Origin: an uncultured Mollicutes bacterium
Lineage (GTDB): Bacteria; Bacillota_I; Bacilli_A; Acholeplasmatales; Anaeroplasmataceae
DNA: 34,055 nt
Direction: 5' to 3'
NCBI GenBank assembly: GCA_947174785.1
Contig: CAMWKG010000019.1
Span: forward strand, 1-34,055
Shown: piece after piece, positions 4,487 to 23,700 of the stretch
How positions within the stretch are numbered: position 1 is the stretch's first letter
How the letters are laid out: every line of letters starts with the position of its first letter
The notes under the pieces: model-generated
The model's database searches: none
Told to the model about the DNA's origin: nothing
Seen by the model: only the letters and a program-made list of their open reading frames with translations
Program-made: the position numbers and the translations under genes

Positions 4487-4490
4487 AAAA

Positions 4491-5048
4491 TTACCCCTCC
4501 ATGTCGACGTTTATTTCGTCAAAGTACTTTTTCCATTTTGCATCTTTGCCGATAAAAGTTACGTTGTAATTTATATTTTTATTTACTTTCAGCCATTTCT
4601 GATATTTTTTCGTTGCAAGCAGAATTTTTTTCTTGTATGAGCGTAAAATGAACCGGCTTAAAATTTCCAGAGCATCGCTTGCAAAAAACAGTATCAATCC
4701 TATTGTAGATAAGGAAGAAAGAGTTTTTAACGTGTTCAAATCAAAGTTGTCACCGTTTGCGTAAAATAAACCGGGCAGAATCAAAACAAGTCCCAGAATT
4801 ATAAAAATCCAATCTATTCTTATCAGTTTTTTTAACATTGCTTCTTTATCTTCGTACTTTTTATACTGCGGATAGGATTCGTAAAATTCGTTTTTCAGCG
4901 CGCTTTGTTCGCTCTGAAGCAAATTATTATAATTGACGCAATTTACTTTCGGCTTTTCCTCGCCCGTTAAACTCTCTCCGCAATGAATACAGTTACTTGC
5001 CGTATCACTTACATTGTTTCCGCAGTGCGGACACTTAATTATTGCCAT
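4491..5048 (-). CDS. Small zinc-ribbon membrane protein
   Basis: The 185-residue protein begins with a single zinc ribbon (CPHCG ... CIHCG, residues 6-23), followed by a charged linker. It has two hydrophobic segments, WIFIILGLVLILPGLFYA and STIGLILFFASDALEIL, and a basic C-terminus rich in Lys and Trp. ATG 5048 follows AAGGAG at good spacing. It is the first gene of a two-gene operon and shares its zinc-ribbon start with the downstream product, so the two probably act together. Transcription most likely begins from the consensus promoter at 5091-5119, which has an operator-like repeat at its start point. I recognise no named family and the function is unknown. Confidence 0.7.
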   Translation of the reverse strand: MAIIKCPHCGNNVSDTASNCIHCGESLTGEEKPKVNCVNYNNLLQSEQSALKNEFYESYPQYKKYEDKEAMLKKLIRIDWIFIILGLVLILPGLFYANGDNFDLNTLKTLSSLSTIGLILFFASDALEILSRFILRSYKKKILLATKKYQKWLKVNKNINYNVTFIGKDAKWKKYFDEINVDMEG

Positions 5049-5066
5049 ATAGCTCTCCTTTATCTT

Positions 5067-5085
5067 ATGTATACATTAGATATTG
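5067..5085. promoter_or_regulatory. Operator-like direct repeat 1
   Basis: ATGTATACATTAGATATTG here matches ATGTAAACATTAGCTATTG at 5138-5156 in 17 of 19 positions. It lies at the predicted transcription start of the minus-strand promoter at 5091-5119, a typical repressor position. The divergent XRE protein is the obvious candidate binder. Confidence 0.55.
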
Positions 5086-5090
5086 AACAC

Positions 5091-7450: not shown

Positions 7451-9478
7451 TCAACTTTCGTATTTCTTGAAAGCGTTTTCTACGTGGTCGTTTTCGTGCT
7501 CTTCCATATACTTGATGACCTCTTCGTAGGTCTTGCCTTCCATAAGCATATCAACTTCTTCCATGTAAATGGTTTCCTTTTCGATAAGAACGCGTGCCAT
7601 ATTGTCAAGAATACTTCTGTTTTCGGTAAGCAGCTTGCGTGCACGTTCGTGCTGGGTAGAAATGATTTCGCGCACTTCTTCGTCTATCATTTTAGCCGTT
7701 TCTTCGGAATATGCGCATTGTGTTGCCATATCTCTGCCGAGGAACACGGGCTGAGAATCATCGTTGTAGCTTATAAGTCCGAGCTTTTCGCTCATACCGA
7801 ATTCGGTTACCATTGCGCGTGCCATTTTTGTAGCCATTTTGATATCCTGTGACGCCCCAGAAGAAATGTCCTTAATTACTATTTCTTCGGCAACACGGCC
7901 GCCAAGCGTCGAGCAAATATCATCGATTAGGTATTTCTTTGAATAAGTCAGCCTATCCGTTTCGGGACGCATCATAGTGAAACCGCCTGCACTGCCGCGG
8001 GGAATTATCGTTACTTCGTGAACGGGGTCGCAGTTAGTGCAAAGCTTTGCAAGAATACAGTGTCCCGATTCGTGGAATGCCGTAAGTCTCTTTTCGGGTT
8101 CGGTGACAACTTTACTCCTCTTCGCGGGGCCGATTGCAACTTTATCAAATGCCTCGTACAGTTCGGCGTTAGTTATGAATTTTTTGTCCGCTCTCGCCGC
8201 CAAAATTGCCGCCTCGTTAAGAAGGTTTGCAAGGTCCGCACCCGAGAATCCCGCCGAAAGACGGGCAACCGCTTTAAGATTGACGTCAGGAGAAAGGGGC
8301 TTGTTGCGCGCGTGAACTTTTAATATCTGTTCTCTGCCCTTAACGTCGGGTAAATTGACAAATACCTGTCTGTCAAACCTTCCGGGACGTGTAAGCGCGG
8401 GGTCGAGAATATCTGCGCGGTTGGTCGCAGCCATTACTATAACGCCTTCATTGGACTCGAAACCGTCCATCTGAACGAGTATCTGGTTGAGGGTCTGCTC
8501 GCGTTCATCGTTGCCGCCGCCGAGACCTGCACCGCGGTGACGACCTACTGCGTCGATTTCATCTATGAAAATTATGCAGGGCTGGTTCTTCTTAGCCATA
8601 TCAAATAGGTCGCGTACACGCGAGGCACCGACGCCGACATACATTTCAACGAAATCGGAACCCGAAACGGAGAAGAAGGGAACGCCTGCCTCGCCCGCAA
8701 CTGCCTTTGCAAAGAGAGTCTTACCTGTTCCCGGAGGGCCCACCAAAAGCACGCCGCGGGGTATACGCGCGCCCAAATCAGTGAATTTTTTAGGCTGACG
8801 CAAAAACTCAACTATTTCCGCAAGCTCTACTTTTTCTTCCTCGGCGCCAGCAACGTCGTTAAAGCGCACTTTAATATTTGTAGATATACGTGCCTTTGTC
8901 TTGGCAAAGCTCATAACCTTGCCCGCACCGCCCATTGATGAGCGGATAATAAGGAAAAACACAACGCAAACTACGACAAGCATCAATATCGAGAACGCCG
9001 TCGAAACCCAGCTGCCCGCATTGGGATTAGCCTGATCTATTACGACGCCGTATTCAAACTGCCAGGTATAGAGAGTTTCCGAATCCCAGCTTTCGGAACC
9101 GTAAGCCGAGGGACCGTAGCAGTAGAATATCTTTTTGCCTCTTGTAACGGCATCGTAGCCCGAATACTCGTAGCCACTCGTTTCGATACGCCAGATAACT
9201 ACAAACTGCTTACCGTTCTTATCGACGACCTTACCGCTTTCACCGATAGTGTAAATTTCATTACCGTCTTTGTCTTTAGGTAGGTCGCTTATCTTATAGC
9301 CTTCGCGCAAGGTGCCGTCTTCATTGACGTACTGCGCATTTTCTACATATTCCTGAAATTTAGTACGCGTAATCTTTGTTGCACCACCGTTCAAAAGTTG
9401 CGTCACAATGACGGCAACAACGGCAGCGGCAAGCAGCGCGACAATTATCCAGGAAATAATTCTGCCTTTTTTACTCAA
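7451..9478 (-). CDS. ftsH: ATP-dependent membrane zinc protease FtsH
   Basis: FtsH forms a hexameric AAA+ protease in the membrane that degrades damaged or regulatory membrane proteins. The 675-residue product has an N-terminal transmembrane helix (about 8-28), an extracytoplasmic domain of roughly 120 residues and a second helix ([20 protein letters not shown]). The AAA domain carries Walker A GPPGTGKT near residue 246, Walker [12 protein letters not shown] and the second region of homology ([10 protein letters not shown]). The peptidase domain carries the zinc motif HESGH near residue 467. All key residues are intact, and the length is close to the usual 610-700. The stop is TGA. It lies between parS sites 1 and 2, on the same strand as parA-parB. 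Confidence 0.97.
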
Positions 9479-9682
9479 AATTAGTCTCCTTATATAATTT
9501 GGTATTATTTTTTAGTTGCAGTAACAATTTTAGCATATTAAAGTTACTATATCAAGCGTTTGCATTGAAATTAATTAAATTTTTACTCAATTTTCACTTA
9601 TTTCATATACCTTTTAAATACATCAAATTTTTAAATTTGTTATAAAATTTAGTATGCGCCTATCATAAATTTGTTTAAAAAA

Positions 9683-9698
9683 TGTTTAACGTGAAACA
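9683..9698. promoter_or_regulatory. parS site 2 (one mismatch)
   Basis: TGTTTAACGTGAAACA differs from the parS consensus at position 6 only, and lies 27 bp before the perfect site. Confidence 0.8.
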
Positions 9699-9725
9699 TT
9701 CAACCAAATTTTTTACCCTAAACAG

Positions 9726-9741
9726 TGTTTCACGTGAAACA
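9726..9741. promoter_or_regulatory. parS site 3 (perfect)
   Basis: TGTTTCACGTGAAACA is an exact match to the Spo0J/ParB consensus palindrome. It lies 25 bp from the first DnaA box. Confidence 0.95.
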
Positions 9742-9765
9742 TAAAGCGCGATTTTTTAGCAAAAG

Positions 9766-9804
9766 TTATCCACAGTTGATAACTGATTGTTAATATGTGG
9801 ATAA
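9766..9804. promoter_or_regulatory. Pair of inverted DnaA boxes
   Basis: TTATCCACA on the plus strand (9766-9774) and its exact complement TGTGGATAA (9796-9804) are perfect DnaA boxes facing each other across 21 bp. AT-rich DNA flanks them. Confidence 0.8.
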
Positions 9805-9924
9805 TTTTTTGAAATTTATTAAGGTAAACGTTAAAGTATTTATACGGCATACAATATTGAGTACCGTATTTAGACGAAATTTGCGCCGCTATAACAACTA
9901 TGGCGCTAAATACGGCTGTTAAGC

Positions 9925-10083
9925 ATAAAGTTTAAGTTTGATATGAGTGTTGTTAATCAAGCATTATCGCTATAAAGATACTCGGATGCAACGTCACGTT
10001 GCTAAATTGAACGCTTATGCTTTACATGCGTACCGTCAATCAGGCTCTACCACAATAAAGATACGTGAATTAAACGTCACGTT
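9925..10083 (-). repeat. Interspersed repeat, two inverted copies (D1, D2) before yyaC
   Basis: Two units with an 83-bp period share ATAAAGATAC (9972-9981; 10055-10064) and AACGTCACGTT (9990-10000; 10073-10083). The reverse complement of the first unit matches the region after 10689, including a perfect 22-bp identity (9982-10003 against 10689-10710) and a later ATCAAACTTAAAC-like block. The pair therefore belongs to the same family as copies A-C, in opposite orientation. Confidence 0.6.
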
Positions 10084-10147
10084 TATTATATTTTAATTGA
10101 AAACGGTCAATAACTTGTCAGACGAAATTAATCACCCGAGGTACATT

Positions 10148-10732
10148 ATGGACTATTCTTTTAATTTATATAATTCGCTTGCTCCCGGCGGAGTATGTCT
10201 TGCACTCAAAAAAATCGTTCCCACAGGCGGAGACGCTCCCGTAATACTCTGCATAGGCAGTGATTTATCCGTAGGCGATTCGTTAGGCCCGGTTACCGGC
10301 ACCAAGCTTAAGCGCCTTTTGGCGGGACTTAACTGTTTCGTGTACGGAACTTTATCCAAGCCAATCACTGCGCACGAAGTCAAATACATGAACGACTTTT
10401 TGAAGTTCACACACCCCAACAGCCCCGTAATCGCAGTCGACGCGGCGGTGGGGCTTGCGGGAGATATAGGCTTAATAAAAATTGCGCGCCGAGGACTCAA
10501 GCCCGGCAGCGGCGCTAATAAAAAGCTGCAAAAAGTAGGCGACATTTCCATAATGGGAATTATCGCCGAACAGTCCGTATTTAATTATTCTCTGTTTTCC
10601 GCAACAAGGCTGAACGTAATTTATAAGATGTCCGATATTATTGCTGAAGGAATTACTTCCTTTGTTTTAGACTATCTTCAGAACTCGCAGCAACGTGACG
10701 TTGCATCCGATTTTCTTAATTACGGCGGCTGA
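10148..10732 (+). CDS. yyaC: Sporulation protein YyaC (DUF1256, germination-protease-like fold)
   Basis: The product resembles Bacillus YyaC, a sporulation protein of the DUF1256 family whose fold resembles the GPR germination protease; its substrate is not established. ATG 10148 is preferred because CGAGG precedes it at good spacing; upstream extension would need a TTG without a ribosome site. The 194-residue product has the family core: CIGSDLSVGDSLGPVTG (residues 35-51), a central IAVDAAVGLAGDIG and the segment around KPGSGANKKLQKVGDISI. In B. subtilis yyaC is also next to soj-spo0J, so the neighbourhood supports the call. The last codons, from the QQRDVASDF stretch on, fall inside a copy of the interspersed repeat (from 10689), so the C-terminus seems to have been replaced or extended by repeat DNA. 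Confidence 0.88.
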   Translation: MDYSFNLYNSLAPGGVCLALKKIVPTGGDAPVILCIGSDLSVGDSLGPVTGTKLKRLLAGLNCFVYGTLSKPITAHEVKYMNDFLKFTHPNSPVIAVDAAVGLAGDIGLIKIARRGLKPGSGANKKLQKVGDISIMGIIAEQSVFNYSLFSATRLNVIYKMSDIIAEGITSFVLDYLQNSQQRDVASDFLNYGG

Positions 10733-10823
10733 GATTCAACAATTCACTCGTCAAACTTAAACCTTGCATTTACGGCGTATCTTAATTACGGTAGTAATCC
10801 AGCTAATCACAAATCAAACTTGA
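10689..10823 (+). repeat. Interspersed repeat, copies C1 and C2 (overlap yyaC 3' end)
   Basis: C1 starts with a 22-bp perfect inverted match to 9982-10003 and continues with TTCTTAATTACGGCGGCTGAG, here split from about 10713, resembling the GCGGTGGCTGAGGTT of copy B. C2 (10776-10823) has GCGTATCTTAATTACGG and ends TAATCACAAATCAAAC exactly as copy A does. C1 overlaps the last 44 bases of yyaC. Confidence 0.6.
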
Positions 10824-10967
10824 ATGGCGCATTAATAAATTTGCAGGCGCATAATTAAATATAAAAATTATTTGGCATGGCGCAAACAAACTTTAAAACA
10901 CATTACAGTTATATTATATATGACTAAAAGTAAGAAGGCTAACAAATAATATTACTTATAATAGCAT

Positions 10968-11004
10968 AAAGCAAGGAAAAGCAGTTCTTTCCTTGCTTTA
11001 TTAT
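10968..11004 (+). terminator. Intrinsic-terminator-like hairpin
   Basis: AAAGCAAGGAAA (10968-10979) pairs perfectly with TTTCCTTGCTTT (10988-10999) around an 8-nt loop, then ATTATT. The rest of the 340-bp gap (10733-11073) holds repeat copies C1/C2 and AT-rich DNA with no gene. Confidence 0.6.
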
Positions 11005-11073
11005 TATGGCTTTGCTATAATGTAATTGCGATAAACAGTAATTTAACGTAAAGTTTTAGGTGGCTTAAATTCA

Positions 11074-11682
11074 ATGAGTGAAAAAGAATTATATTCTCAT
11101 CTTGGTGAGCTTACAAAAGACAAAGAGCAATGGAAAGAAAATATTACCTTTGTTGCTTCTTTGCTAAAAGAACAATCCATAAAAATAATAGGAAAATCTC
11201 TTTGGCTACTTGGTGAAATGGGAATGTTATATCCCGAAGAAATTAGTCCGTTTGTAGAGCAAATTGCCGCTTTCTTGAAGTCAAATGATGAACTACTAAA
11301 AGAACGCGCCTTAAATGCTTTGGGACGAATCGGACGATCAGATTACGAATTGATTAAACCTTATCGGGACGAAATGTTCTTATTAGCAACTGACGATAGT
11401 CCAAGTGTGCGTTTAAGTTTTATATGGGCGTCAGAAAACATAGCGACTAATACGCCCGAAGCCTATGAGCATTTTATTCCTATATTTGAAAAATTACTTG
11501 ACGATAAGAATGTTCGCGTCAGAATAGAAGCACCCGAAATGTTTCGAGTATTAGGCAAGCGTAAACCGAATTTTGTTCGCCATTGTTTAAATAAATTAAA
11601 ATTATTATCAGAAGAAGATGATGACAGAATTGTACGTATTCACGCCAAAGGCGCAATAAAAGCAATAACCCAATCAAAATAA
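11074..11682 (+). CDS. HEAT-repeat protein
   Basis: The 202-residue soluble protein is built of helical pairs typical of HEAT or PBS-lyase-like repeats: KERALNALGRIGRSDYE, SPSVRLSFIWASENIA and NVRVRIEAPEMFRVLGKRKP recur about every 35-40 residues, and the final repeat is IVRIHAKGAIKAI. Such proteins act as protein-binding scaffolds; no catalytic motif is visible. AGGTGG precedes the ATG at wider than usual spacing. It is followed 49 bp later by a DUF6194-like gene on the same strand. Base composition is lower in G+C than the origin-proximal genes, but some GCG and CCC codons remain, tying it more to the left than to the right part of the window. The role is unknown. Confidence 0.75.
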   Translation: MSEKELYSHLGELTKDKEQWKENITFVASLLKEQSIKIIGKSLWLLGEMGMLYPEEISPFVEQIAAFLKSNDELLKERALNALGRIGRSDYELIKPYRDEMFLLATDDSPSVRLSFIWASENIATNTPEAYEHFIPIFEKLLDDKNVRVRIEAPEMFRVLGKRKPNFVRHCLNKLKLLSEEDDDRIVRIHAKGAIKAITQSK

Positions 11683-11694
11683 GTTTATCGAAAG

Positions 11695-11715
11695 TAAAGA
11701 TAAATTTCAATTTAT
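11695..11715. repeat. Flanking direct repeat upstream of the DUF6194-like gene
   Basis: GTAAAGATAAATTTCAATTTA here recurs at 12176-12195 as GTAAGATAAATTTCGATTTA, so near-identical repeats sit immediately before and after the gene. The second copy is a perfect small hairpin, GATAAAT-TTCG-ATTTATC. Confidence 0.5.
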
Positions 11716-11731
11716 ACAAGGAGAACATTAA

Positions 11732-12178
11732 ATGCAGCCTAACGATATACTTAAATACTGCCTTGATAATTTACCAGATACAGTTTTGGTAAGTAGTTGG
11801 GGCGAAAGTGGAATTTTCTATAATCCGAATAATACGCTAAAGCGCGGAATTTATATTTTGACTGTCAAAGAAAAAGACGGCGACAACGATAAAGGTTCGG
11901 ATTTGAATAGAGAAAATATTTATCGTGTAAATATAGGTGTTCGCAAAAACACTTTTATAAATATGTTCGGTAATGTTCCTATGCGTCCGTCAAAAGGTGG
12001 GATTGTAGATATGCCGTTTGACTTTACGCAAACGGATAAAATACTGCCGCACCCTATTTATGCTTGGATGAGTTGGGTGTGTACGCTCAATCCGTCCGAT
12101 ACTACCTTTGAAAGATTAAAACCACTAATTCAAGAGGCTTACGAATACGCAAAAGAAAAATATTTTAAAAGGAAGTAA
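11732..12178 (+). CDS. DUF6194-like protein
   Basis: The 148-residue protein resembles the DUF6194 family. It has an N-terminal segment LPDTVLVSSWGESGIFYNP, a central strand-rich part RVNIGVRKNTFINMFG and the late motif LPHPIYAWMSWVCTLNPSD with a conserved-looking His-Pro-x-Tyr and Trp pair, then a helical C-terminus. The fold is expected to be a small alpha/beta (YjbR/MmcQ-like) type, and its molecular function is not known. AAGGAG precedes the ATG at good spacing. No membrane segment or signal peptide is present. It is flanked on both sides by near-identical 20-bp repeats, which is unusual for a single gene. It is the last gene before the compositional break. Confidence 0.65.
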   Translation: MQPNDILKYCLDNLPDTVLVSSWGESGIFYNPNNTLKRGIYILTVKEKDGDNDKGSDLNRENIYRVNIGVRKNTFINMFGNVPMRPSKGGIVDMPFDFTQTDKILPHPIYAWMSWVCTLNPSDTTFERLKPLIQEAYEYAKEKYFKRK

Positions 12179-12197
12179 GATAAATTTCGATTTATCG
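12176..12197. repeat. Flanking direct repeat and hairpin after the DUF6194-like gene
   Basis: Second copy of the repeat at 11695-11715, overlapping the stop codon. GATAAAT and ATTTATC pair around TTCG. Confidence 0.5.
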
Positions 12198-12630
12198 ATA
12201 TAGTATTATGATTTGAAATCCTCCCGAAGAAGGGATAGAAGTTAGTAATATGTTTGAGGCTGATAGTTCGTCTGTGTACCACAGGTATTCCCAAACTAAA
12301 ACTGAATATAAACAAACAAAGCCATTAGGCATAAGGAAATTCTGATATGATACCTCTAAAGTAGACAAACAAAATAATTAAAAGGAAACTATCCATTGAG
12401 ATTAGGATCTCGAGATTAAAAAGACTAGTTTGGAGGTATTTTTATTATTTGGAGAAAACAAAAATATAGTAAGAAATTAAAAATTTGTAAAAAACGACAT
12501 ATTTCCAATAGTAATCGTTTTAATAATAGCTATAATTTTATGTATTTTCCCAATAATTGTTCTAAGTAATACGTTGAGATTACTTGTTTTTTTTATCTTG
12601 ACTTGTTCTTGAAGTTTACAATAGAGCAAG
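12198..12630. other. Gene-free junction between the two compositional halves
   Basis: No convincing gene, tRNA or long repeat is seen. Mixed-composition DNA up to about 12340 gives way to strongly AT-rich DNA. A stretch around 12344-12440 (ATGATACCTCTAAAGTAGAC, then short stop-interrupted frames) looks like the end of a decayed insertion sequence, but no transposase can be recovered. This is where the character of the window changes. Confidence 0.4.
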
Positions 12631-12655
12631 CCCCCTGTATTCAAAATACAGGGGG
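12631..12655 (-). terminator. Hairpin downstream of the ABC operon
   Basis: CCCCCTGTAT (12631-12640) pairs perfectly with ATACAGGGGG (12646-12655). It lies 6 bp after the ABC gene's stop on the minus strand. The T-run is poor, so termination or mRNA 3'-end protection are both possible. Confidence 0.6.
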
Positions 12656-12660
12656 ATACT

Positions 12661-14715
12661 TTAAATTTTATTCTTGGTTTTAAGTGTTGAAGCAGTAGAA
12701 CTAAATCTTTTTAGTAAATAACAATAAATTGTTATGCTTAGAGTTATTGCTCCAATTACAAAGCTGAGTATAAGTGTAATAGGAGTTACTTCAAACATAA
12801 ATGATGTTTGATAATTAAAGGTTTTTAAATAATATGTACAGAGAATACTTATAATGAATCCAGCTATAAAGCTTGGTAATAGTTTTAAAAACAATTTAAT
12901 AGCGTAGGTATGAATAACAGCTGCTTTCGTTATACCCATATTTCGTAATGTGATAATATCCATAATCTGATTGGTAATATAGTTAGAGGTATCTAGAAGG
13001 ATAAAGAATAATGCAAAAATGAGTAAAACAATAGTTATAGATAAAAAGATACTATATAATTGATTAAGGTTAGAATCTATATATCCATAATTTTCAACTG
13101 CAGGTAAGGTATATAATATATTATCTTCATCAAGGATACTTGTTACCTCTTCTAAATGAGTAGTATAAAAGATTCCAAGAGCATTACAGTCATAATAGCT
13201 ATAGTCACTCACGACATATTTGACCTCTACTCCATCTAAAAAGAAAGCATCCTCATAAATATCTTTAATTTCATAATCCAAATGTTTTCCACCAATATTT
13301 ATATGCCCGCCGATGGAAGTGTTTGTAGTATATTTTCCAAGAACTAATACTTTATCTTTTTCAATTTCTAAAGCCTGAGGGTTATGCTTCTTATAAAGAC
13401 TATATGGCAGTATTCCATTTCTAATAAAATAATTTTCAGTATATAAAATACCTTCTATCTCACTATCCACAATTCCTACTACATCGTAAGATGAGATTCC
13501 TGTATCAATGCTTGATCCTAAAAGATCCTTTATGTCTTGAAAATACAATTCCTTTAAGTTTACAAAACCAGAATCCCGATAAGCTGAGCATATTCTTCCT
13601 TCCTTTAAAATACGTTTGGCAAGTGCTTTGGTCAAATAAATCTTAGGATTATTTGTTTCACTTTCTTTATCTAATGAATAAAGGATTTTTTCATTTTGAT
13701 AAGGATATAGTTTCATAGTTGCATCCTTGATGCTAATACTGTTACTTGCCTTAGAAAATCTTTTTTCTTCTGGCATATATAAGTCATAAATTTCAATATC
13801 ATATTGAAATATGCCTTGGTTTTTAATCTTTGTATATGTTTCAAAGGGGAGCACTTTTTCAAAGCGGATGTAATTATTTGTGATAGAAGAGGATTGATAT
13901 TTATAGCCTGTGATGTTAGAAGAATTCATACATATGAGCATAGTTAATGCAACCATAAATAGAATCAGTATGAAATTTGTTTTGTTTTTTATTTTAAAGG
14001 TGTCTTTTAAATAGGATGCCAAATTGAATTTTGATTTTCCTTGTTTCACTTCATAGCTTGTTTTTGTCTCTGGAGTTGAAATGGTTTTATCCTGTGTCAC
14101 TTCTCCATCCGTAAGAGTGATAATGCGATCACTATACTTAGTTACTAAATCAATATCATGACTTACTAAAATAATTAGAATGTGAGTGGATAAGGATTTT
14201 AAAATCTGCATTACACGCATTCTATTTTTTAAATCAAGATTTCCCGTAGGTTCATCTGCCACAATGTAGGCAGGCTTTTTTATTAGAGCTCTTGCGATAG
14301 AGACACGCTGTTTTTCACCACCTGAAAGCATAGAAATACGACGGTCCTTTAGCCTAGAAATGTCTAAAGCCTTTAAGGTATCTTCCAATGCTTGATCTGT
14401 AGCATCTAAATAGCCAATCCTTATATTTTCTTCAACAGTTTTATTTTCAAGTAAAGCGTAATCCTGAAAGATAACTCCTACATTATTATATCGAAAGCTA
14501 TCTGTTACAGGAATGTTATTATAACAAACTGTACCACTAGTAGGGGTATCTAATCCTGCAAGCATATTTAATAAGGTGGTTTTGCCACAACCAGAAGGTC
14601 CAAATATGCTGACTAATCCTGTTTCAGGAAGCTCTAAGGATATATTTTTTAGAACACATTGTTCACTCAATTTATTTTTATCGTAATATTTACAAATATT
14701 CTGAGCGGTTAACAT
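12661..14715 (-). CDS. ABC transporter, ATPase fused to FtsX-like permease (MacB-type)
   Basis: The 684-residue protein joins an N-terminal ABC ATPase to a permease. The ATPase has Walker A GPSGCGKTT (residues 39-47), Q-loop FQDY, signature SGGEKQRVSIARAL (131-144), Walker B with DEPTGNLD (154-161) and a switch histidine in LVSHDI. The permease has a first transmembrane helix near 247-265, a large extracytoplasmic domain of about 280 residues and three C-terminal helices (SITIVLLIFALFFILLD and following). This 4-helix layout is that of MacB/FtsX mechanotransmission exporters, which move or sense peptides, lipoproteins or antimicrobials rather than pumping through a channel. Its ATG overlaps the upstream gene's stop (TAATG), so it is translationally coupled to the XRE-ABC fusion, probably its heterodimer partner. 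The substrate is unknown. Confidence 0.9.
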   Translation of the reverse strand: MLTAQNICKYYDKNKLSEQCVLKNISLELPETGLVSIFGPSGCGKTTLLNMLAGLDTPTSGTVCYNNIPVTDSFRYNNVGVIFQDYALLENKTVEENIRIGYLDATDQALEDTLKALDISRLKDRRISMLSGGEKQRVSIARALIKKPAYIVADEPTGNLDLKNRMRVMQILKSLSTHILIILVSHDIDLVTKYSDRIITLTDGEVTQDKTISTPETKTSYEVKQGKSKFNLASYLKDTFKIKNKTNFILILFMVALTMLICMNSSNITGYKYQSSSITNNYIRFEKVLPFETYTKIKNQGIFQYDIEIYDLYMPEEKRFSKASNSISIKDATMKLYPYQNEKILYSLDKESETNNPKIYLTKALAKRILKEGRICSAYRDSGFVNLKELYFQDIKDLLGSSIDTGISSYDVVGIVDSEIEGILYTENYFIRNGILPYSLYKKHNPQALEIEKDKVLVLGKYTTNTSIGGHINIGGKHLDYEIKDIYEDAFFLDGVEVKYVVSDYSYYDCNALGIFYTTHLEEVTSILDEDNILYTLPAVENYGYIDSNLNQLYSIFLSITIVLLIFALFFILLDTSNYITNQIMDIITLRNMGITKAAVIHTYAIKLFLKLLPSFIAGFIISILCTYYLKTFNYQTSFMFEVTPITLILSFVIGAITLSITIYCYLLKRFSSTASTLKTKNKI

Positions 14716-17006
14716 TATTTAACCTCCTTTAAAATGGAATTATACTGAATATAAATATGCTTACATAGATGGTAGGTTACAACAACCATTAAGCAAATAG
14801 GTATAACGTAGAAGTACCATATGATAAACGGACGAACTAAATAGATACATCCAGAAATAGCTAATGCAAGAATTAAGGAAAGCAGAATTGGACAAATCAT
14901 ATGTATAAAGATTGCCTTGTTTGAAAAACCTATTTTTTTCAAAAGAACAAATTCTTTTTGCCTTGCCTTGAGAAGCTTTTTATAAGTTACTTTAAGCAAA
15001 ATATAGATGAGAATAGCTAATACTACATTTAATGAAAAGAAGAATGTATTTGAAAAGAACAAATCATGATCCTCTAATGGAAATTTTAAATCTTGAAGCT
15101 TAAATGTGTGATAGTCAAGCTTATTAAGGGTATTATCAATTTTTAATATTTGACTTTCATTACAAATGACATAGAGATGCTCTGTTTCAAATTCTAAATC
15201 CTCATAGAACGTGTAAGAAACTCTAGCTCTTTCCTCCTCTGTTAAATAAAGCGAAGTTTCAAAACGATTATCCCAAATGATGAGAGTTTCATCATGAATT
15301 TCTTCTTTAAGCTCAGAGGATATATATTGTTCGGGAACAAATAGTCCTTCAAATGAGTCTGTTAAATCAATTTCCAAAAACTCTTCTAAAAGTTTAGTTT
15401 TATCATCCTCAAGTGAAATGTAAGTATTTGTGATATTTAAATAATGATTTGTATCTTTAATTTGGAATTTTTTCTCTATGCTATAACACTTTTGTATAAA
15501 GTCTAAAGTAGAATAAGATAGGTAGATACAATTATTATCAGTAATATAACGATCTGCGTGTTCAATTTCTAAGCATTTTAATTTAAAATAAAGTGAGCGA
15601 TTGCCCGTAAAAGTTATATAACATACTTGAGATTCATCAATAAAAGTAGATTCTTCGATAGATTGTATTTTAGTATCTCCAAAACTTAAAGAATTGTCAA
15701 TTACATACTGATAGTCATTCCATGAATCATGTATTCCAAGTATTTTAGTTTTATATTGATATAATTCAGGAAGAATAGTCAATTCAACACCATTCAAATT
15801 TTGAATTTGCTTTAATTCTTTTTCTGTAATAGAGATATTGTCATTCTTTTTTACTTCAATGATTTTGTTTTCTTTTTCGTATGCGCCACGGCTATAATCT
15901 CCCACACAATAATCTGCAATGATATTTCCGCCAAAAAGAAGAACAGCACATAGTAAAACACTTAATAAAGTTAGAATTTGATTAAAGAAATTCGTTTTAA
16001 ATTTCTTACAAGCAATGATGAAGCCTAAAAGAACATCCTTAGATTTTCCAACAGTAGGAGTTTCCTTATATTGAGTATACTTGGTATCTCTAATCTTTTT
16101 ATCTTCAATTACCTTTCCATCACTCAAAGTAATTTTTCTGGTTATATATTTTTCAATTTGTTCATAGTGATGTGTAACTAAGATAACTAGCTTATCCTTG
16201 ACATTCTCAAATAAAAGGTCTAATATTTCTTTACCTGAAGTGCTATCAAGATTGGCTGTTATTTCATCTCCTAATATGATAGGAGTATCCTTTAAAATGG
16301 CTCTGGCCACAGATAGCTTTTGTTTTTGTCCACCTGATAGTTTAGAAGCCTTTTTATTTTTGAATCTTAAAAATCCAATACGGTTTAGCATCTCTAAAGC
16401 TTTTCTTTTAGCATCCTTATAAGAATCATTCATTAGCAATCTAACAAGAATAAGATTATCTAATAAGGAGTAGCTTTCTAAAATACCATAATCCTGGAAG
16501 ATAAAGGAGATATATTTTTTACGATAGTTCTCATAATCAAAGGAATCATATTTTGAGATTCCTTCATTATTCATATAGATTTCTCCATCTTCAAAGGAAT
16601 CTACTCCACCAATCATATTAATCAATGTAGTTTTACCTGAGCCTGAAACACCTGTTACGGCTATGATTTCTCCTAATTTAAAATTTAAGGAAATATCCTT
16701 TAAGCCAATCTCTACTCTAGAATCGTTATTATAATATTTATAGACATGTTCTAAACGAGACAAATCATCTAAGACTTCATTTTCTAATATGGGATTTCTT
16801 TTACCATTCAAAAGTTCTTCCATTGTAATTCCTAAAACCTCACAGAGCTTAGCCATATATTTTGGTTCTGGAAGACCTTGCCCATTTTCCCATTTGCTGA
16901 TAGCTTTGTTGGAAACACCAACAAGCTCACCAAGCTTTCCTTGGGTGAGATTTTTTTCTTTACGTAATGTGGTTATAAAATTACCGATTTCATAATTTTT
17001 TTCCAT
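14715..17006 (-). CDS. XRE DNA-binding domain fused to ABC ATPase and FtsX-like permease
   Basis: ATG 17006 is chosen because GGAGG lies 8 nt upstream; the frame is open 17 codons further without a ribosome site. The 763-residue single chain has three parts. Residues about 8-66 form a Cro/CI-type helix-turn-helix (TLRKEKNLTQGKLGELVGVSNKAISKWENG, here abbreviated from 13 to 42). Residues about 85-300 form an ABC ATPase with Walker A GVSGSGKTT (119-127), Q171, signature LSGGQKQK (223-230), catalytic Glu in GDE (246-248) and H-loop VTHH. The rest is a MacB/FtsX-type permease with a helix at about 343-366, a large extracytoplasmic domain and three C-terminal helices. HTH and transporter are normally separate proteins, so this would be a membrane-tethered regulator. 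The downstream partner is coupled by TAATG. Self-regulation through the inverted repeat at 17077 is inferred. Confidence 0.88.
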   Translation of the reverse strand: MEKNYEIGNFITTLRKEKNLTQGKLGELVGVSNKAISKWENGQGLPEPKYMAKLCEVLGITMEELLNGKRNPILENEVLDDLSRLEHVYKYYNNDSRVEIGLKDISLNFKLGEIIAVTGVSGSGKTTLINMIGGVDSFEDGEIYMNNEGISKYDSFDYENYRKKYISFIFQDYGILESYSLLDNLILVRLLMNDSYKDAKRKALEMLNRIGFLRFKNKKASKLSGGQKQKLSVARAILKDTPIILGDEITANLDSTSGKEILDLLFENVKDKLVILVTHHYEQIEKYITRKITLSDGKVIEDKKIRDTKYTQYKETPTVGKSKDVLLGFIIACKKFKTNFFNQILTLLSVLLCAVLLFGGNIIADYCVGDYSRGAYEKENKIIEVKKNDNISITEKELKQIQNLNGVELTILPELYQYKTKILGIHDSWNDYQYVIDNSLSFGDTKIQSIEESTFIDESQVCYITFTGNRSLYFKLKCLEIEHADRYITDNNCIYLSYSTLDFIQKCYSIEKKFQIKDTNHYLNITNTYISLEDDKTKLLEEFLEIDLTDSFEGLFVPEQYISSELKEEIHDETLIIWDNRFETSLYLTEEERARVSYTFYEDLEFETEHLYVICNESQILKIDNTLNKLDYHTFKLQDLKFPLEDHDLFFSNTFFFSLNVVLAILIYILLKVTYKKLLKARQKEFVLLKKIGFSNKAIFIHMICPILLSLILALAISGCIYLVRPFIIWYFYVIPICLMVVVTYHLCKHIYIQYNSILKEVK

Positions 17007-17028
17007 ACTTAAAACCTCCACATTGCTA

Positions 17029-17057
17029 TTTATACTATATTGTTTACAAAATATCAA
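17029..17057 (-). promoter_or_regulatory. Sigma-A promoter of the XRE-ABC operon
   Basis: On the minus strand, TTGATA (plus 17052-17057) and TATAAA (plus 17029-17034) are 17 nt apart. A start near 17022 leaves a leader of about 16 nt holding the GGAGG ribosome site. Confidence 0.65.
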
Positions 17058-17076
17058 AAAAAAACAAGAAAAAAAG

Positions 17077-17091
17077 TCTACGAAGCGTAGA
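17077..17091. promoter_or_regulatory. 15-bp inverted repeat, candidate operator of the XRE-ABC fusion
   Basis: TCTACG-AAG-CGTAGA is a perfect inverted repeat with an odd 3-bp centre, a common XRE operator geometry. Its centre is about 62 bp upstream of the predicted minus-strand start point, an activator-like position. It also lies about 50 bp from the divergent promoter. Alternatively it is a terminator hairpin (a T-run follows on the minus strand), but no minus-strand gene reads into it. Confidence 0.5.
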
Positions 17092-17136
17092 ATTTTAAAA
17101 TAACCCTAGTTAAAATGAGGATAATTTGATTTTTTA

Positions 17137-17165
17137 TTGACTATTTTTCAAAAATTCGGTATGAT
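17137..17165 (+). promoter_or_regulatory. Sigma-A promoter of the small membrane protein gene
   Basis: TTGACT (17137-17142), a 17-nt spacer and TATGAT (17160-17165). The leader is about 85 nt long and ends in AAAGGAGG. Confidence 0.65.
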
Positions 17166-17258
17166 TAAGGTAGAAGTAATTAGCGGTTTTAAATATAATA
17201 TAAGAAGTAGTATAAAAGCATTATTTTAAGTGAATAATGAAAAATAAAGGAGGACAAT

Positions 17259-17657
17259 ATGTTAAAGGCTATAGATGGTATATTAAGTTTTTTGTTTCGT
17301 GTTTCTAAAAAAAGAGATAAGGCAAAACGAATTAAAGAGGATGAAGAGAAGCGAGAGACAAGTTTATATTTTGGTATTGAAAGTATTGCATACTCTGTCT
17401 TGTCAACAGGAATGTGCGTCTTAGGTGCATGGTTATTTGTTGCCTTTTCGGATACAGGACTTGTTCTATTTACTATCATTGCAGGACTTACATTTGTGAT
17501 TGGTGGTCTTATTTCATTTTTTTGGGCATTAGTAGGTTGGATTTTACAATTAAGTATTAATAAAAAATGGATTGGCTGGATTGCCATACTTGTTTTTATT
17601 GCAGGTTTAGTAGGAAGTGTGCTTTTTGTACTTGGATTATTAGGTGGTATGTCCTAA
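17259..17657 (+). CDS. Small three-helix membrane protein, divergent from the ABC operon
   Basis: The 132-residue protein begins with a short hydrophobic start and a very basic cytoplasmic stretch (KKRDKAKRIKEDEEKRE). Three transmembrane segments follow: SVLSTGMCVLGAWLFVAF, LFTIIAGLTFVIGGLISFFWAL and WIGWIAILVFIAGLVGSVLFVLGLL. No conserved catalytic residues or known family are recognised. ATG 17259 follows AAAGGAGG at good spacing, and a good promoter lies at 17137-17165. It is divergent from the XRE-ABC operon across a region with a candidate operator, so it might be a co-regulated target or accessory, but nothing in the sequence proves a link. A short terminator follows at 17695. Confidence 0.7.
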   Translation: MLKAIDGILSFLFRVSKKRDKAKRIKEDEEKRETSLYFGIESIAYSVLSTGMCVLGAWLFVAFSDTGLVLFTIIAGLTFVIGGLISFFWALVGWILQLSINKKWIGWIAILVFIAGLVGSVLFVLGLLGGMS

Positions 17658-17694
17658 TAAGAAAAGGTAATGAAAAAGAAGAATCGTTTTGAAA

Positions 17695-17717
17695 ATGTCT
17701 AGGAATAGGCATTTTTT
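17695..17717 (+). terminator. Intrinsic terminator after the small membrane protein gene
   Basis: ATGTCTA (17695-17701) pairs with TAGGCAT (17706-17712), including one wobble, around GGAA, followed by a T-run. Confidence 0.6.
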
Positions 17718-17784
17718 AATTTTTAAATACTTTAAAGTAAAATGATCCTTGGATTAAACTTTTGTAGGTAGCTTTTCTTTTCTC

Positions 17785-17814
17785 TTGAAATCTCATATTT
17801 GTTTATGTTATAAT
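17785..17814 (+). promoter_or_regulatory. Promoter of the tRNA-Gly/tRNA-Ser unit
   Basis: TTGAAA (17785-17790) and TATAAT (17809-17814) are separated by 18 nt, and the tRNA begins 16 nt after the -10. Confidence 0.65.
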
Positions 17815-17829
17815 TCTTAATAGTCTTTT

Positions 17830-17903
17830 GCAGGCGTAGTTTAATGGTAGAACTTCAGCTTCCCAAGCTGTCAGTACGGGTTCGATTCCCGCCGCTTGCT
17901 CCA
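17830..17903 (+). tRNA. tRNA-Gly (anticodon CCC)
   Basis: A 74-nt cloverleaf. The acceptor arm GCAGGCG pairs with CGCTTGC (one G-U). The D-arm has TAGTTTAATGGTAGA, the anticodon loop is TTCCCAA (CCC) and the T-loop is TTCGATT. The CCA end is encoded. The anticodon and T stems each have one terminal mismatch, which is tolerated. Confidence 0.9.
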
Positions 17904-17907
17904 AAAT

Positions 17908-17998
17908 GCAGAGATACCCAAGAGGCTGAAGGGACACGCTTGGAAAGCGTGCAGATCGGTAACACGGTGCAGGGGTTCAAATCCCCTTCTCTGCGCCA
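17908..17998 (+). tRNA. tRNA-Ser (anticodon GGA)
   Basis: A 91-nt tRNA with a long variable arm, as expected for serine. The acceptor GCAGAGA pairs with TCTCTGC, the anticodon loop TTGGAAA sits between CACGC and GCGTG, the T-loop is TTCAAAT, and the discriminator G and CCA are encoded. It lies 4 nt after tRNA-Gly in the same transcript. Confidence 0.95.
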
Positions 17999-18011
17999 AA
18001 GGATTTGAACT

Positions 18012-18061
18012 TACCTCTATTTATTGGACAAATGTGTTACAATAAGTGGAGGTATTTTTTT
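18012..18061 (+). terminator. Strong terminator hairpin between tRNA-Ser and the Sel1 gene
   Basis: A 15-bp stem with two G-U pairs (18012-18026 with 18040-18054) encloses a 13-nt loop and is followed by eight T residues. The run abuts the GAAGGAG ribosome site of the next gene. The loop/stem boundary holds TGTTACAAT, an extended -10-like motif. Confidence 0.8.
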
Positions 18062-18075
18062 GAAGGAGAATAATT

Positions 18076-18459
18076 ATGGCTTATTATAAATCATGTGAAG
18101 AATTAGAAAGATGTTTAGAATTGGATAATAAATTCTGGGAAAAAGATATGAAGAAATGGTTTGAAGGATATTTAGCCATTGCAGAAGAAACAAGCTATGC
18201 ATTAGCTGAGTGCCAAGTAGGCTTCGCATATTTAGAAGGTATTGGTACAGAAAAGGATTTGGAAAAAGCATTATACTGGACAACTCTTTCAGCAGAGCAT
18301 GGCGATAGAGATGGACAATGTAATTTGGCTTGGATATATGAAGAGGGATTATGTGGAGAAAAAAATATAGATAAGGCAATGTACTGGTACAAAAAGGCAG
18401 CTTTACAAAATCATGATTTAGCAATAGAAAAATGCAAGAAATATAAGATTGAATTGTAG
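18076..18459 (+). CDS. Sel1/TPR-like repeat protein
   Basis: The 127-residue soluble protein contains two clear Sel1-like repeats with the family signature: AECQVGFAYLEGIGTEKDLEKALYWTTLSAEHGD and GQCNLAWIYEEGLCGEKNIDKAMYWYKKAALQN (about residues 38-112; quoted by their cores GFAYLEGIG and LAWIYEEG). Sel1 repeats are alpha-helical protein-protein interaction modules. No catalytic domain or signal peptide is seen. AAGGAG precedes the ATG, directly behind the tRNA terminator, so expression may depend on read-through or on a promoter inside the hairpin. The next gene starts 4 bp after the stop, so the two are probably co-transcribed. The partner is unknown. Confidence 0.75.
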   Translation: MAYYKSCEELERCLELDNKFWEKDMKKWFEGYLAIAEETSYALAECQVGFAYLEGIGTEKDLEKALYWTTLSAEHGDRDGQCNLAWIYEEGLCGEKNIDKAMYWYKKAALQNHDLAIEKCKKYKIEL

Positions 18460-18462
18460 TAT

Positions 18463-19530
18463 ATGGATAGGTATAGAATGTTGAATTCTCATAGGATTAG
18501 AAAAATAAAAATAGTGGATAATGATGAACTCAGAAATGAAATCGCTAAAAAATATTCATCTCAAAATCAGATTGTATTAGCAGAATGGTCTTTAGAGATG
18601 GCAAAGCATATCATTCAATTCACAAATTTTGATACAAGCATATATCCTGAAATTAAAGAAGGATTTGAAATAAATGAGTTATGGCAAAAGGGTAAGGCTA
18701 GGATGTATGAGGTTAGACAAATAGGATTTAAGATTCATAGAATTGCTAGAGAGCAAAAGGATGAATTATCAAAAACTATTTTTCGTGTAATTGGACATGC
18801 CATAGCAAGTGCGCATATGAAAGAGCATTCTATAGTAGCTAGTGATTATGCTATTAAAGTGATAAATTTATTATATGAAAAAAATTTGGACAAGGTGAAG
18901 GAAGAAAGAATGTGGCAGTTAGATAAAATGAATGAACTAAGTTCTTTAAAACAAATGGATAAAAATTCAAATTTATATTTGTCCTTTAGCGCAAGAAATT
19001 CTGGAAACTGCGAAGCTATAGCTAAGCATTTTATGAAGAAGAAAGATACATATATAGCTTTTAAAGATTTATTCTATAATAGCTGTTCTAAATGTGAATA
19101 TGAATGCTTTAAAGATGAATGTAAATATAGACAGGATGATATTTATAATTTGTTAGATTCTTTTAATAGCTATGAGAAAATCATATTTCTTGTGCCTATG
19201 TATTGTGGAAATCCATCCTCCTTATATTTCATTTTATCAGAACGTATGCAGGATTATTTTAATCATAATGAAGAGAAATATGATGCATTTTTAAAGAAAC
19301 TATTCATTATAGGAATTTTAGGTTCAAAAAAGGAAAGCCCATTGTTTATGCCAATACTCTCTAGTTGGTTTGAACAAGAAGATGTAGAAGGACATGTGCT
19401 TGGAATTGAAAGACACCTATATAATCAAAAATTGGATGATACCGTAGTGACAAATGCTGCATTAAAATCTATCTTAGATTCTTTCTTTAAAAAGAATATC
19501 GAATGTATAGAGGACAACTCTAATGAATAA
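18463..19530 (+). CDS. Imm-5-like domain fused to flavodoxin/FMN-reductase-like domain
   Basis: The 355-residue protein has two parts. Residues about 20-140 resemble the Imm-5-like putative immunity domain: AEWSLEMAKHI, then FRVIGHAIASAHMKEHSIVASDYAIKVI with the paired histidines typical of that family (quoted from 107). Residues about 170-345 resemble a flavodoxin-like NAD(P)H-dependent FMN reductase: a phosphate-loop-like LSFSARNSGNCEAIAKHF (173-190), a Cys cluster (208, 211, 215, 220) after KDLFYN and the strand IIFLVPMYCGNPSS. Imm-5-like domains normally occur alone. The cysteines could bind metal or act in redox chemistry; this is inference. The gene overlaps the transporter by 8 bp and follows the Sel1 gene by 3 bp, so the three probably form an operon. 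Confidence 0.6.
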   Translation: MDRYRMLNSHRIRKIKIVDNDELRNEIAKKYSSQNQIVLAEWSLEMAKHIIQFTNFDTSIYPEIKEGFEINELWQKGKARMYEVRQIGFKIHRIAREQKDELSKTIFRVIGHAIASAHMKEHSIVASDYAIKVINLLYEKNLDKVKEERMWQLDKMNELSSLKQMDKNSNLYLSFSARNSGNCEAIAKHFMKKKDTYIAFKDLFYNSCSKCEYECFKDECKYRQDDIYNLLDSFNSYEKIIFLVPMYCGNPSSLYFILSERMQDYFNHNEEKYDAFLKKLFIIGILGSKKESPLFMPILSSWFEQEDVEGHVLGIERHLYNQKLDDTVVTNAALKSILDSFFKKNIECIEDNSNE

Positions 19531-20437
19531 GGTCAGCAGACTAGGTATATTTCTAGCAATAGTTGCAGCAGCCTTATACGCAATTCATTCTCCAATATCC
19601 AAAATATTATTAGATTATATGCCACCAACACTTATGGCTGGTTTTCTTTATATTGGTGCTGGAATAGGCATGCTAGGTATTGCAATAATAAAGAAAATCC
19701 ATAAGCAGAATAGAGTCGAAATGCGGTTGACCAAAAAAGAAATTCCATATACTATTGCAATGATATTGCTTGATATAGCAGCTCCTATATTCTTGCTATA
19801 TGGTTTGAAATCTACGACTGCTGCAAATGCTTCGCTTCTAAATAATTTTGAAATTGTTGCAACAGCTATAATTGCTCTTGTCATTTTTAAAGAAAAGATA
19901 AGTCTGCGTTTATGGATAGGAATACTATTTATTACATTGTCATGTATTTTATTATCCTTTGAGGATATATCCAGCTTGCAATTATCCTTTGGCTCTTTAT
20001 TGATTTTGCTATCCTGCATCTGCTGGGGATTTGAAAATAATTGTACAAAGAAAATTTCTTCGAAGGACCCTTTGCAAATTGTTTTTCTAAAGGGGATATT
20101 TTCCGGATTAGGTTCTATAATAATTGGACTTTGTATTGGAGAGCGCGTTACTGTACTGTGGAGTGTTTTTGCTGTTTTAGGTGTTGGGTTTGTTGCTTAT
20201 GGCTTAAGTATATTCTTTTATATATATGCACAAAGAATGCTTGGCGCTGCAAGAACGAGTGCATATTATGCAATTGCGCCATTCATTGGTACTGCATTAT
20301 CTCTTATAATATTTCGTATGTTGCCACCCTACACCTACTTTATTGGTTTGGTATTAATGGCTATAGGAGCATGGCTTTCTTCAAAAGATAAACCAATATT
20401 TAAAAAGAAGAAGATAGATCAACTTACAAACGAATAA
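19523..20437 (+). CDS. DMT-superfamily transporter (EamA family)
   Basis: The 304-residue protein has about ten hydrophobic helices arranged as two EamA repeats. The first starts GIFLAIVAAALYAIHSPISKILL and the second LLILLSCICWGFENNCTKKISS, with the family's typical small-residue-rich second-helix region (FLLYGLKSTTAANASLLNNFE, here from about residue 92). The C-terminus is basic (KDKPIFKKKK). EamA carriers export amino acids, metabolites or drugs, and the substrate cannot be inferred. The start overlaps the previous gene's end by 8 bp, indicating translational coupling. A terminator follows at 20481. Confidence 0.9.
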   Translation: MNKVSRLGIFLAIVAAALYAIHSPISKILLDYMPPTLMAGFLYIGAGIGMLGIAIIKKIHKQNRVEMRLTKKEIPYTIAMILLDIAAPIFLLYGLKSTTAANASLLNNFEIVATAIIALVIFKEKISLRLWIGILFITLSCILLSFEDISSLQLSFGSLLILLSCICWGFENNCTKKISSKDPLQIVFLKGIFSGLGSIIIGLCIGERVTVLWSVFAVLGVGFVAYGLSIFFYIYAQRMLGAARTSAYYAIAPFIGTALSLIIFRMLPPYTYFIGLVLMAIGAWLSSKDKPIFKKKKIDQLTNE

Positions 20438-20480
20438 AAGCAATTCAAGAGAAGTTTAATATTGAAAAGCTTTGAAGTTA

Positions 20481-20525
20481 CCTCCAATCATTGGATAATA
20501 TGCTACAATGATTGGAGGGTTTTTA
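20481..20525 (+). terminator. Terminator after the EamA gene, same design as 18012
   Basis: CCTCCAATCATTG (20481-20493) pairs perfectly with CAATGATTGGAGG (20506-20518) around GATAATATGCTA, followed by GTTTTTAT. It shares stem ends and a TGNTACAAT motif with the terminator at 18012. Confidence 0.85.
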
Positions 20526-20621
20526 TATTTTTAGGGAATTTGTTTGTTAATTTAAAGGTATTGGAATTTAGAAAAATGTATTTATTTTAGAAGAAAAAAC
20601 GGAAAGTTATTTGTCGGTTTA

Positions 20622-20650
20622 TTGAAAAAATGCTCAATTTATGATAAGAT
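20622..20650 (+). promoter_or_regulatory. Sigma-A promoter of the giant surface protease gene
   Basis: TTGAAA (20622-20627), a 17-nt spacer and TAAGAT (20645-20650), about 100 bp before the chosen GTG start. Confidence 0.6.
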
Positions 20651-20750
20651 AGAATCACATAAATTTTGAACGTAGTGCTTTTATGAATTGTACGAAAAAC
20701 AATTTATATTTTTTGATGGGAGTATTGTCTTGAGGGAAGAGGGTATTATA

Positions 20751-23700
20751 GTGAAAAGAAAGAAAATAAACTTAATACTTGTTGCAGTTATAATAGGCAT
20801 TTTATTTATTTTTATATCTTCAATTGATGTTAAATTAAAGGCTAATAATTTTGAAATTGGCTTTCATGATTTTGAAAAAGATTATTTAAACATTATGGAA
20901 AATTATACTAGCTCCAATGATGGACAAATTGTTTTTTCTAGTAAGGATGGTCTTTATGAACGAAATGGTTGTTATATGATTGATGGAAACAGCTTTTCGC
21001 GTTTAACAGGTGCTAGTATAATAAATTCAGAGGATAATACTTCTATACGATATGAAGAAAAAAACATAAGTATTAAGAATGATGTTATTTATAGTGAAAA
21101 TGATACTGTTGAAATTTTACCACAAGCTATGGAGTATTCTAATGGCAGCTGTGCATTTCCTATTCAAACAGTTGCAGCAGCATTAGGATATAAAGTAAAT
21201 GTTACTGGGAGTGAAGAAAAGAACGTTACACTTACACGTGAATTTTCAACTAAGCGACTCATTGTAAAATATAAAGGAAATCTAGATAGCTGTGGAGCAA
21301 TTGCATCTGCTGAAGGCTATGATGACTTGCATATTTTTCAATATAAGGATGAAGAAAGCACAGCTAGTGCATATGAGTATTTCAAAAAGCTTTCTTTTAT
21401 TGAGTATGTTGAATGTGATGAGGTTGTAACGGTTGAACAGACCGATACAGAAAGTACGGATGCATCTATTAGCTCAACTTATAAGAGCTGGGGTGCAGAG
21501 GCTATGGGGGTCGGCAATTACACATCCCATATAAAAAGTACAATGTCTACTTTGCCAGAGATTATTGTTGCAGTTATTGATACAGGTATTGATACAGACC
21601 ACGAATGGTTTAAAAATCGTATTGCAGCTGGTGGTAAGGATTTTACTGCCTCTACCAGCAAAACAAATTATGAATACGAGGATGATCAAGGACATGGTAC
21701 TCATGTTTCAGGTATAATCGTAGATTTAACTTTAGATAATGTAAAAATATTACCTATCAAAGTTATGGATGAATCAGGCAAAGGCTATACATCCTCTATT
21801 ACGCTAGGTGTGAAGTATGTTACCTCTTTAAAGAAAACTGGCGTTAATATTAGAGCACTCAATATGAGCTTGGGTGGTACTGCAACCTCTGAATCCAATA
21901 AGCTTTATTCAGAATGCATAACAGAAGCAGATGATAATGGAATTTTAGCCGTTGTTGCTGCAGGAAATGAAAATACAAATGTCAGCTATGTTACCCCTGC
22001 TAATGTATCCTGTGCTGTAACCGTAGCTGCTGTTGCCAATGCAAATAATATTTATTATCGTCCCTATTATTCTAACTTTGGTTCCTATGTGGATGTATGT
22101 GCGCCTGGTAGTGCAATCTTAAGTGCAAGAATGGGTGGAGGTACAGTTACACAAAGTGGTACCTCTATGGCTGCACCCCATGTTGCAGCTGCTGCTGCAT
22201 TAGTACTTACAGAGCATAGCGAATATACCCATAAGCAAGTAGAAAAGCTACTTAAAAATACAGCTATAGATTTAGGTGATAAGGGAAAAGATAGCTATTA
22301 TGGCATGGGAATGGTTAACCTAAGATATATTTATGCTGAACTTTTATCAGGTGTAACTTTCAGTAATCTAGTAACAAATTGTACTCAGCCTTTTGACTTG
22401 ACCATTTCTCATACAAATTCAAATGCTGTCATTTACTACACTGTAGATGGAACACTTCCTACACCTGAAAATGGTATTTTATATACATCTCCTATTCGTA
22501 TAAGTCGTTCTGTAAAGATAAGAGCTTCAGCATACGTTCTTACAGCAAATCAAGTAGATTCCTATAGCAATCCTGTAGATATAACATATCGTTTTGGTAA
22601 TCAAGATCTTGAAGATTGTTTTATTGTAGATAATGAAACAGGAGGCTTAGTATATTATCAAGGCATCCTTGAAGATGTTACTGTTCCACAGATAATAGAT
22701 GGAACAACGATAACAACCATATGTTCAGGTGCTTTTACTGCAACAAATGTTGTCAATGTAGTATTACCAAATTCGGTCATCGAAATACAAAGTAGTGCTT
22801 TTAGAGATTGTAAAAACTTACAAACTGTTACAGCACCTAACGTAAAGAGTATAGGTAACTATGCATTTCAAAGCTGTTCAAAGCTTATGTACGTAAATGA
22901 TGAATATTTTCCTGAACTTATCAAGATAGGTGCCTATGCATTCTATCAATGCTCAAGTTTGCGTAGTATTACATTAAGTAAAGTAGAAACCATAGATTCT
23001 TCTGCATTTTATATGAGAAATACAGACCCAAAGTATCTGACAAGCATCAATTTGCCATCTGTTAAAATTATTAGTGATTTTGCTTTCAATTACGCAAGCT
23101 ATGTTACTCAAGTGAACTTACCAAAAGTAGAAATTATATCGGAATGTGCGTTCCAAGAGAATGATATAAGAACTCTTTATTTGCCTAATGTCATCTATTT
23201 AGGAAGTTCCGCATTTTTCGGAAATGACAAGATGACATCAGCTGATTTACCTAAAGCAGTTTATCTTGCGACCTATGCTCTTGCAGGAAGTACAGAAGGT
23301 GGTGGAAGTTTGCTTAGCTCTGTAAACCTTCCAAAAGCTAAAGTGTTGGGTACTTATGTAATTTCTCACACACTTGTAACACATATTGATTTACCAAGTG
23401 TAGAAACACTTTTACCCCTTGCCTTTTATACACAAAGGCTACTTGAAAGCTTTACAGCACCGAATTTGAAATATGTTGGCTCACGTGCTTTTGGATATTG
23501 TGAAGCTTTAACTGAAGCTAATTTGCCTTCTGTAATTTCTCTAGATAATGCATTTTATGCATGTAAAAATCTTCAAACGATTACACTTTCTCCTTGTCTA
23601 GAAAAGATGCCTGCTTACTCCACTAACGACCGTGGAGAAATCAATGCATTAAAATATGTTCCTGAGACCTGTGTGATTTATTATTATAAAGGAACGGCTT

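Follow-up and report, generated by a model that had tools for sequence, protein, structure and literature searches.

Among the closest described systems, a proposed chain of events leads from cycling of the BceAB transporter to activation of BceS, then of BceR, and so to higher bceAB expression (PMC10314905, PMC7828314). Signaling in Bce modules requires a histidine kinase and a response regulator as separate proteins, whereas the locus described here has a DNA-binding domain on the ATPase chain itself. It lies in a 34,055-nucleotide stretch (the window; contig CAMWKG010000019.1, assembly GCA_947174785.1) from an uncultured Mollicutes bacterium of the Anaeroplasmataceae, and the host group consists of little-known gut bacteria. 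Gene 1 (14715–17006, minus strand) encodes a single chain of 763 residues that joins an XRE helix-turn-helix (HTH), an ABC ATPase and a MacB/FtsX-type permease. No kinase or response regulator gene was recognized in the translated open reading frames of positions 9000–22000 or beside the homologous loci. The best reading of the sequence data, and in our judgment a rather probable one, is a kinase-free one-component sensor transporter that would autoregulate its own operon.

The in-frame fusion proposed in the preliminary description was borne out, with HTH_3 (E 2.3e-14, residues 14–65) and ABC_tran (E 1.5e-26, residues 102–251) detected by Pfam in the same open frame. The XRE (Cro/CI) domain spans residues 1–70 (16797–17006, minus strand), adopts a five-helix fold in the predicted model and has the P22 C2 repressor among its PDB matches; a significant HTH_3 match and this fold together place it among XRE/Cro-CI regulators. 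The ATPase domain (residues 85–303; 16098–16754, minus strand) retains an intact Walker A motif (GVSGSGKTT), LSGGQ signature, DE pair and H-loop histidine, and the Walker A, signature, Walker B and H-loop residues are kept in the gene 2 chain as well. In the AlphaFold model (mean pLDDT 73), the nucleotide-binding domain is followed by predicted TM1 (residues 340–374; 15885–15989, minus strand), a fast-diverging extracellular domain (residues 380–637; 15096–15869, minus strand) and predicted TM2–4 (residues 646–762; 14721–15071, minus strand). This is the MacB layout of an N-terminal ATPase and four transmembrane helices, with an extracellular domain between TM1 and TM2. The linker joining HTH and ATPase is short and poorly defined in the model. 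The best PDB matches of residues 85–763 are MacB structures (Foldseek, VIA-align; Z 24.7, 455 residues aligned), at an rmsd of 10.2, so that domain placement is approximate only. The assignment of an FtsX permease to gene 1 is thus upheld by layout and structural matches but not by Pfam, in which FtsX was reported for gene 2 but not for gene 1.

Gene 2 (12661–14715, minus strand) encodes a second ABC-FtsX half-transporter of 684 residues, whose start overlaps the gene 1 stop (TAATG) as first described, and the operon holds these two half-transporters only. Gene 1 starts at ATG 17006, preceded by a GGAGG ribosome-binding site (17015–17019, minus strand). An upstream TTG start (17057) picked by the ORF finder was rejected, being the TTG of the predicted –35 box. 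On the other side of the shared upstream region, a divergent gene for a 132-residue membrane protein (17259–17657) is real but has no Pfam or NCBIfam match; it is kept in only one homologous locus (G009), is missing in G001, G006, G179 and G575, and was therefore rejected as a part of the system. Further along, positions 20688–27653 encode a subtilase of 2321 residues that, going by its translation only, looks secreted, contains leucine-rich regions and repeats, and is anchored to the membrane at its C terminus.

A fusion confined to this contig could have been an artefact, and it is not: it recurs beyond the window. A search of 100 relatives recovered the whole-chain fusion in five other genomes of the genus (57–76% identity to the window protein), a class-wide search added a locus from another family (G179; 67% identity across residues 1–302), and a scan of named genomes added one more (G575; 66% identity), giving eight loci with the window included. 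Carriers are labeled Anaeroplasmataceae, Anaeroplasma or Mollicutes, and the two more distant ones, G179 and G575, likewise with full-length fusions, are uncultured Bacilli isolates named 'Lapin'. The partner half-transporter follows the fusion in G001, G006, G009, G179 and G575, that is, wherever the contig is long enough. The survey covered Bacilli, so absence outside Bacilli is not claimed. The HTH is absent from the nearest ATPase relatives in other families, and no XRE gene, as would mark a pre-fusion state, neighbors these HTH-less relatives within the flanks examined; a split ancestor was thus not seen. A plasmid search with the full gene 1 protein gave no match, the viral contig scan returned an HTH–FtsK fusion and an HTH match and nothing else, and comparison with defence families gave generic HTH and ATPase matches only.

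Divergence is distributed very unevenly along the chain. Residues 1–72 are identical between the window and G009, G007 and G006 (dN 0 at dS 0.69–0.88), the ATPase domain shows dN of 0.02–0.09 in the same comparisons, and the extracellular domain reaches dN of 0.41–0.56 with 41–50% identity, falling to 17–18% in the outliers. These values indicate strong purifying selection on the HTH. A switch and motor held fixed while the outward face changes would be expected if related systems see different ligands.

The perfect repeat TCTACG-AAG-CGTAGA noted earlier is present at 17077–17091 and is the sole perfect copy of its 15-mer in the 1.84-Mb genome; we regard it as a putative operator (TCTACG-N3-CGTAGA). 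When the upstream regions of the fusion homologues were aligned, as the preliminary description had suggested, the core TCTAC-N5-GTAGA proved invariant in all seven that were available while the flanks diverged, at 70, 70, 70, 72, 70, 71 and 74 bp from the ATG. Across 11 genomes of the genus, five fusion-bearing genomes each contain a single perfect 15-mer, always at the gene 1 homologue, and the five genomes lacking the full-length fusion contain none (backwards control, zero); the remaining genome, G010, has the fusion on a contig that stops short of the dyad site, and it was left out of the five-genome count. A zero count obtained with the pattern TTCTACGNNNCGTAGAA carries no weight, since the bases bordering the genuine site are T and C. 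Among 198 genomes of the class there are four perfect 15-mers, one being that of the window. Of the three in the other 197, two immediately precede XRE genes (L179, L180) and the third is a terminator-like hairpin beside ribosomal operon genes (L181).

The predicted promoter (17029–17057, minus strand), assigned by consensus match only, has a –35 box TTGATA (17057–17052), a 17-bp spacer and a –10 box TATAAA (17034–17029). It lies 19 bp downstream of the dyad, whose center falls at about –62.5 from the predicted start, in agreement with the roughly 62 bp originally reported. The same boxes are found in G006, G007 and G009, and weaker ones in G179 and G575; in all loci the dyad center lies at –59.5 to –65.5, 16–20 bp upstream of the best –35 box. 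Computationally, then, a putative cognate dyad stands near the predicted promoter, as for XRE/Cro-CI regulators. Activators usually bind upstream of –35 with a constant spacing (class I geometry), and this conserved, class I-like position near –62 favors activation as the predicted outcome.

The HTH domain of gene 1 alone was also used as a query, and close relatives fused to other domains (L134, L165 and L169) proved to have the perfect dyad upstream. It is likewise perfect at L128, which encodes an FtsK-type ATPase on a viral contig, and has one mismatch at L166 and L167. L134, L165, L166, L167 and L169 come from other Bacilli and encode XRE proteins, several of which have membrane domains. 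At L128, an XRE domain joined to an FtsK/SpoIIIE ATPase (3883–5086) lies downstream of a serine recombinase; a perfect TCTACGGTTCGTAGA stands about 95 bp ahead of its start, making this the same HTH–operator pair on a protein of mobile-element type. The dyad is absent upstream of L170, L171, L172, L177 and L178, whose recognition helix has DR or ends in SNW, and is borderline at L174 and L175. Its presence seems to track [ND]K-x-x-S-[KR]-W in the recognition helix; the comparison is small and post hoc, and the pattern offers a lead on specificity, short of proof. Since close HTH relatives on such different domains (membrane, FtsK ATPase) also carry the dyad, it is very probably the operator of this HTH type. 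Positional conservation, uniqueness in the genome, the class background and the HTH relatives together tie HTH type and dyad to each other in both directions. The place of the dyad relative to –10 varies in the other genes (about –42 at L134 and –53 at L165), so its role may not always be activation. Two other XRE genes of the window's genome (L139, L143) have upstream 6-3-6 dyads of different sequence (TCAACTATGAGTTGA and TCTAAACTCTTTAGA). This matched pair of HTH type and operator, which recurs on several further protein types, also resembles a portable switch.

In the mechanism that we propose, gene 1 and gene 2 would form a MacB-like ABC transporter. Its extracellular domains would encounter a ligand, for which an envelope-active peptide or a similar compound is the likeliest candidate. 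Held by its short linker to the gene 1 ATPase domain, the XRE domain would bind the single TCTACG-N3-CGTAGA of the genome. A heterodimer of the two chains has one HTH per transporter, so binding to the dyad would need two transporters or a gene 1 homodimer; with ATPase motifs kept in both chains, the sequence favors neither arrangement. A ligand-driven change in the ATPase domains may alter how two HTH domains pair on the dyad, or how tightly they bind it, and with it transcription of both genes, most likely toward activation. The transporter would thereby turn its own transport or ligand state directly into transcription activation through the HTH on its ATPase chain, at a private operator and with no kinase or response regulator, as a single-chain equivalent of flux sensing; we consider this full account evenly poised between right and wrong. 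Whereas the fusion, its conservation and selection on the HTH, like the putative operator and its link to the HTH type, can be read from the DNA, we infer DNA binding in the cell, activation over repression, ATP-state coupling and the ligand as parts of the best explanation.

XRE proteins are often autorepressors, and one site per genome fits an autoregulator, so the HTH might simply keep the operon low whatever the transporter does, the fusion merely placing a repressor at the membrane near its target. Yet the dyad, instead of covering the promoter, is found upstream of –35 with conserved spacing, and an invariant HTH paired with a fast-diverging extracellular domain of sensor-like character suggests an input to a switch; simple autorepression seems unlikely to us, though less so than the other rivals. 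Less credible still is that the dyad works in a leader RNA as a terminator or attenuator hairpin and not as a protein operator. Its perfect 6-bp stem, 3-base loop and, in the genus, T-tract did lead to its being flagged as terminator-like, but the hairpin is weak (–4.5 kcal/mol, vs –14.4 kcal/mol for the true terminator with the same core at L181), G179 and G575 keep the dyad despite a shorter stem and a lost T-run, no conserved promoter lies upstream of it, and it tracks with HTH type across unrelated proteins. That the HTH uses DNA binding to tether the transporter to the chromosome, or is a protein–protein module, with regulation incidental, is slightly less probable again, given that one operator per genome, placed at a promoter, is what a regulator would have rather than an anchor. 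The preferred reading, a transporter with its own DNA-binding domain and a predicted operator at its own promoter, thus withstood each sequence-based attempt at refutation (fusion in eight loci, conserved repeat, purifying selection on the HTH), while the divergent gene once grouped with it dropped out.

The system can be set against several known arrangements. As in BceAB–BceRS, the ABC transporter has a large extracellular domain and is proposed both to handle a ligand and to signal its own cycling to its operon (PMC10314905, PMC7828314). BceB, however, is a 10-TM permease with a separate ATPase, BceA, whereas gene 1 encodes a 4-TM chain fused to its ATPase. In its ATPase, four transmembrane helices, extracellular domain between TM1 and TM2 and best structural matches, gene 1 resembles MacB; MacB, a homodimer with MacA/TolC-type partners, lacks an HTH, whereas the window operon has two different half-transporters in tandem, of which the gene 1 chain bears a DNA-binding domain. 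The L134 and L165 type of XRE protein, which has a C-terminal membrane domain, shares HTH type and upstream dyad with gene 1 but has no ATPase or transporter.

Nearest in principle are XRE–ABC ATPase fusions on Lactobacillaceae plasmids (WP_098035492, WP_118112498, WP_260116030) and in G221 and G239, where an in-frame XRE–ATPase is likewise followed by a permease-like gene. They differ in ATPase and permease type and in having the permease on a separate chain, and no TCTAC dyad was found in the upstream stretches read. The plasmid loci L154, L157 and L158 show this order, with a lantibiotic ABC transporter permease annotation in L157 and L158, and L154 lies near a predicted tet(W). The fusions of G221 (L137, 2544–3530) and G239 (L138, 3348–4322), both Bacilli, accompany ABC-2-like permeases, and their upstream dyads (AGTAGGTAATTATTTACCTACT; TGACTTAATAAGTCA) differ from the TCTAC dyad. 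Some database entries for XRE–ATPases are labeled 'XRE family transcriptional regulator'. The earlier view that a kinase-free system of this kind would be unusual thus needs narrowing: XRE–ATPase fusions with separate ABC-2 permeases are already in databases, and what is new, as far as searched, is that the fusion takes in a complete MacB-type half-transporter and comes with a putative operator that has been identified, is conserved and occurs in single copy. No paper on XRE–ABC fusions of either type was found in the incomplete literature collection searched. In Bce systems the kinase stands between transporter and promoter, making 'flux sensing' hard to isolate; here, an output domain on the ATPase chain and a predicted operator defined to the base would make mutations in the ATP site, the ligand domain and the operator readable as reporter output.
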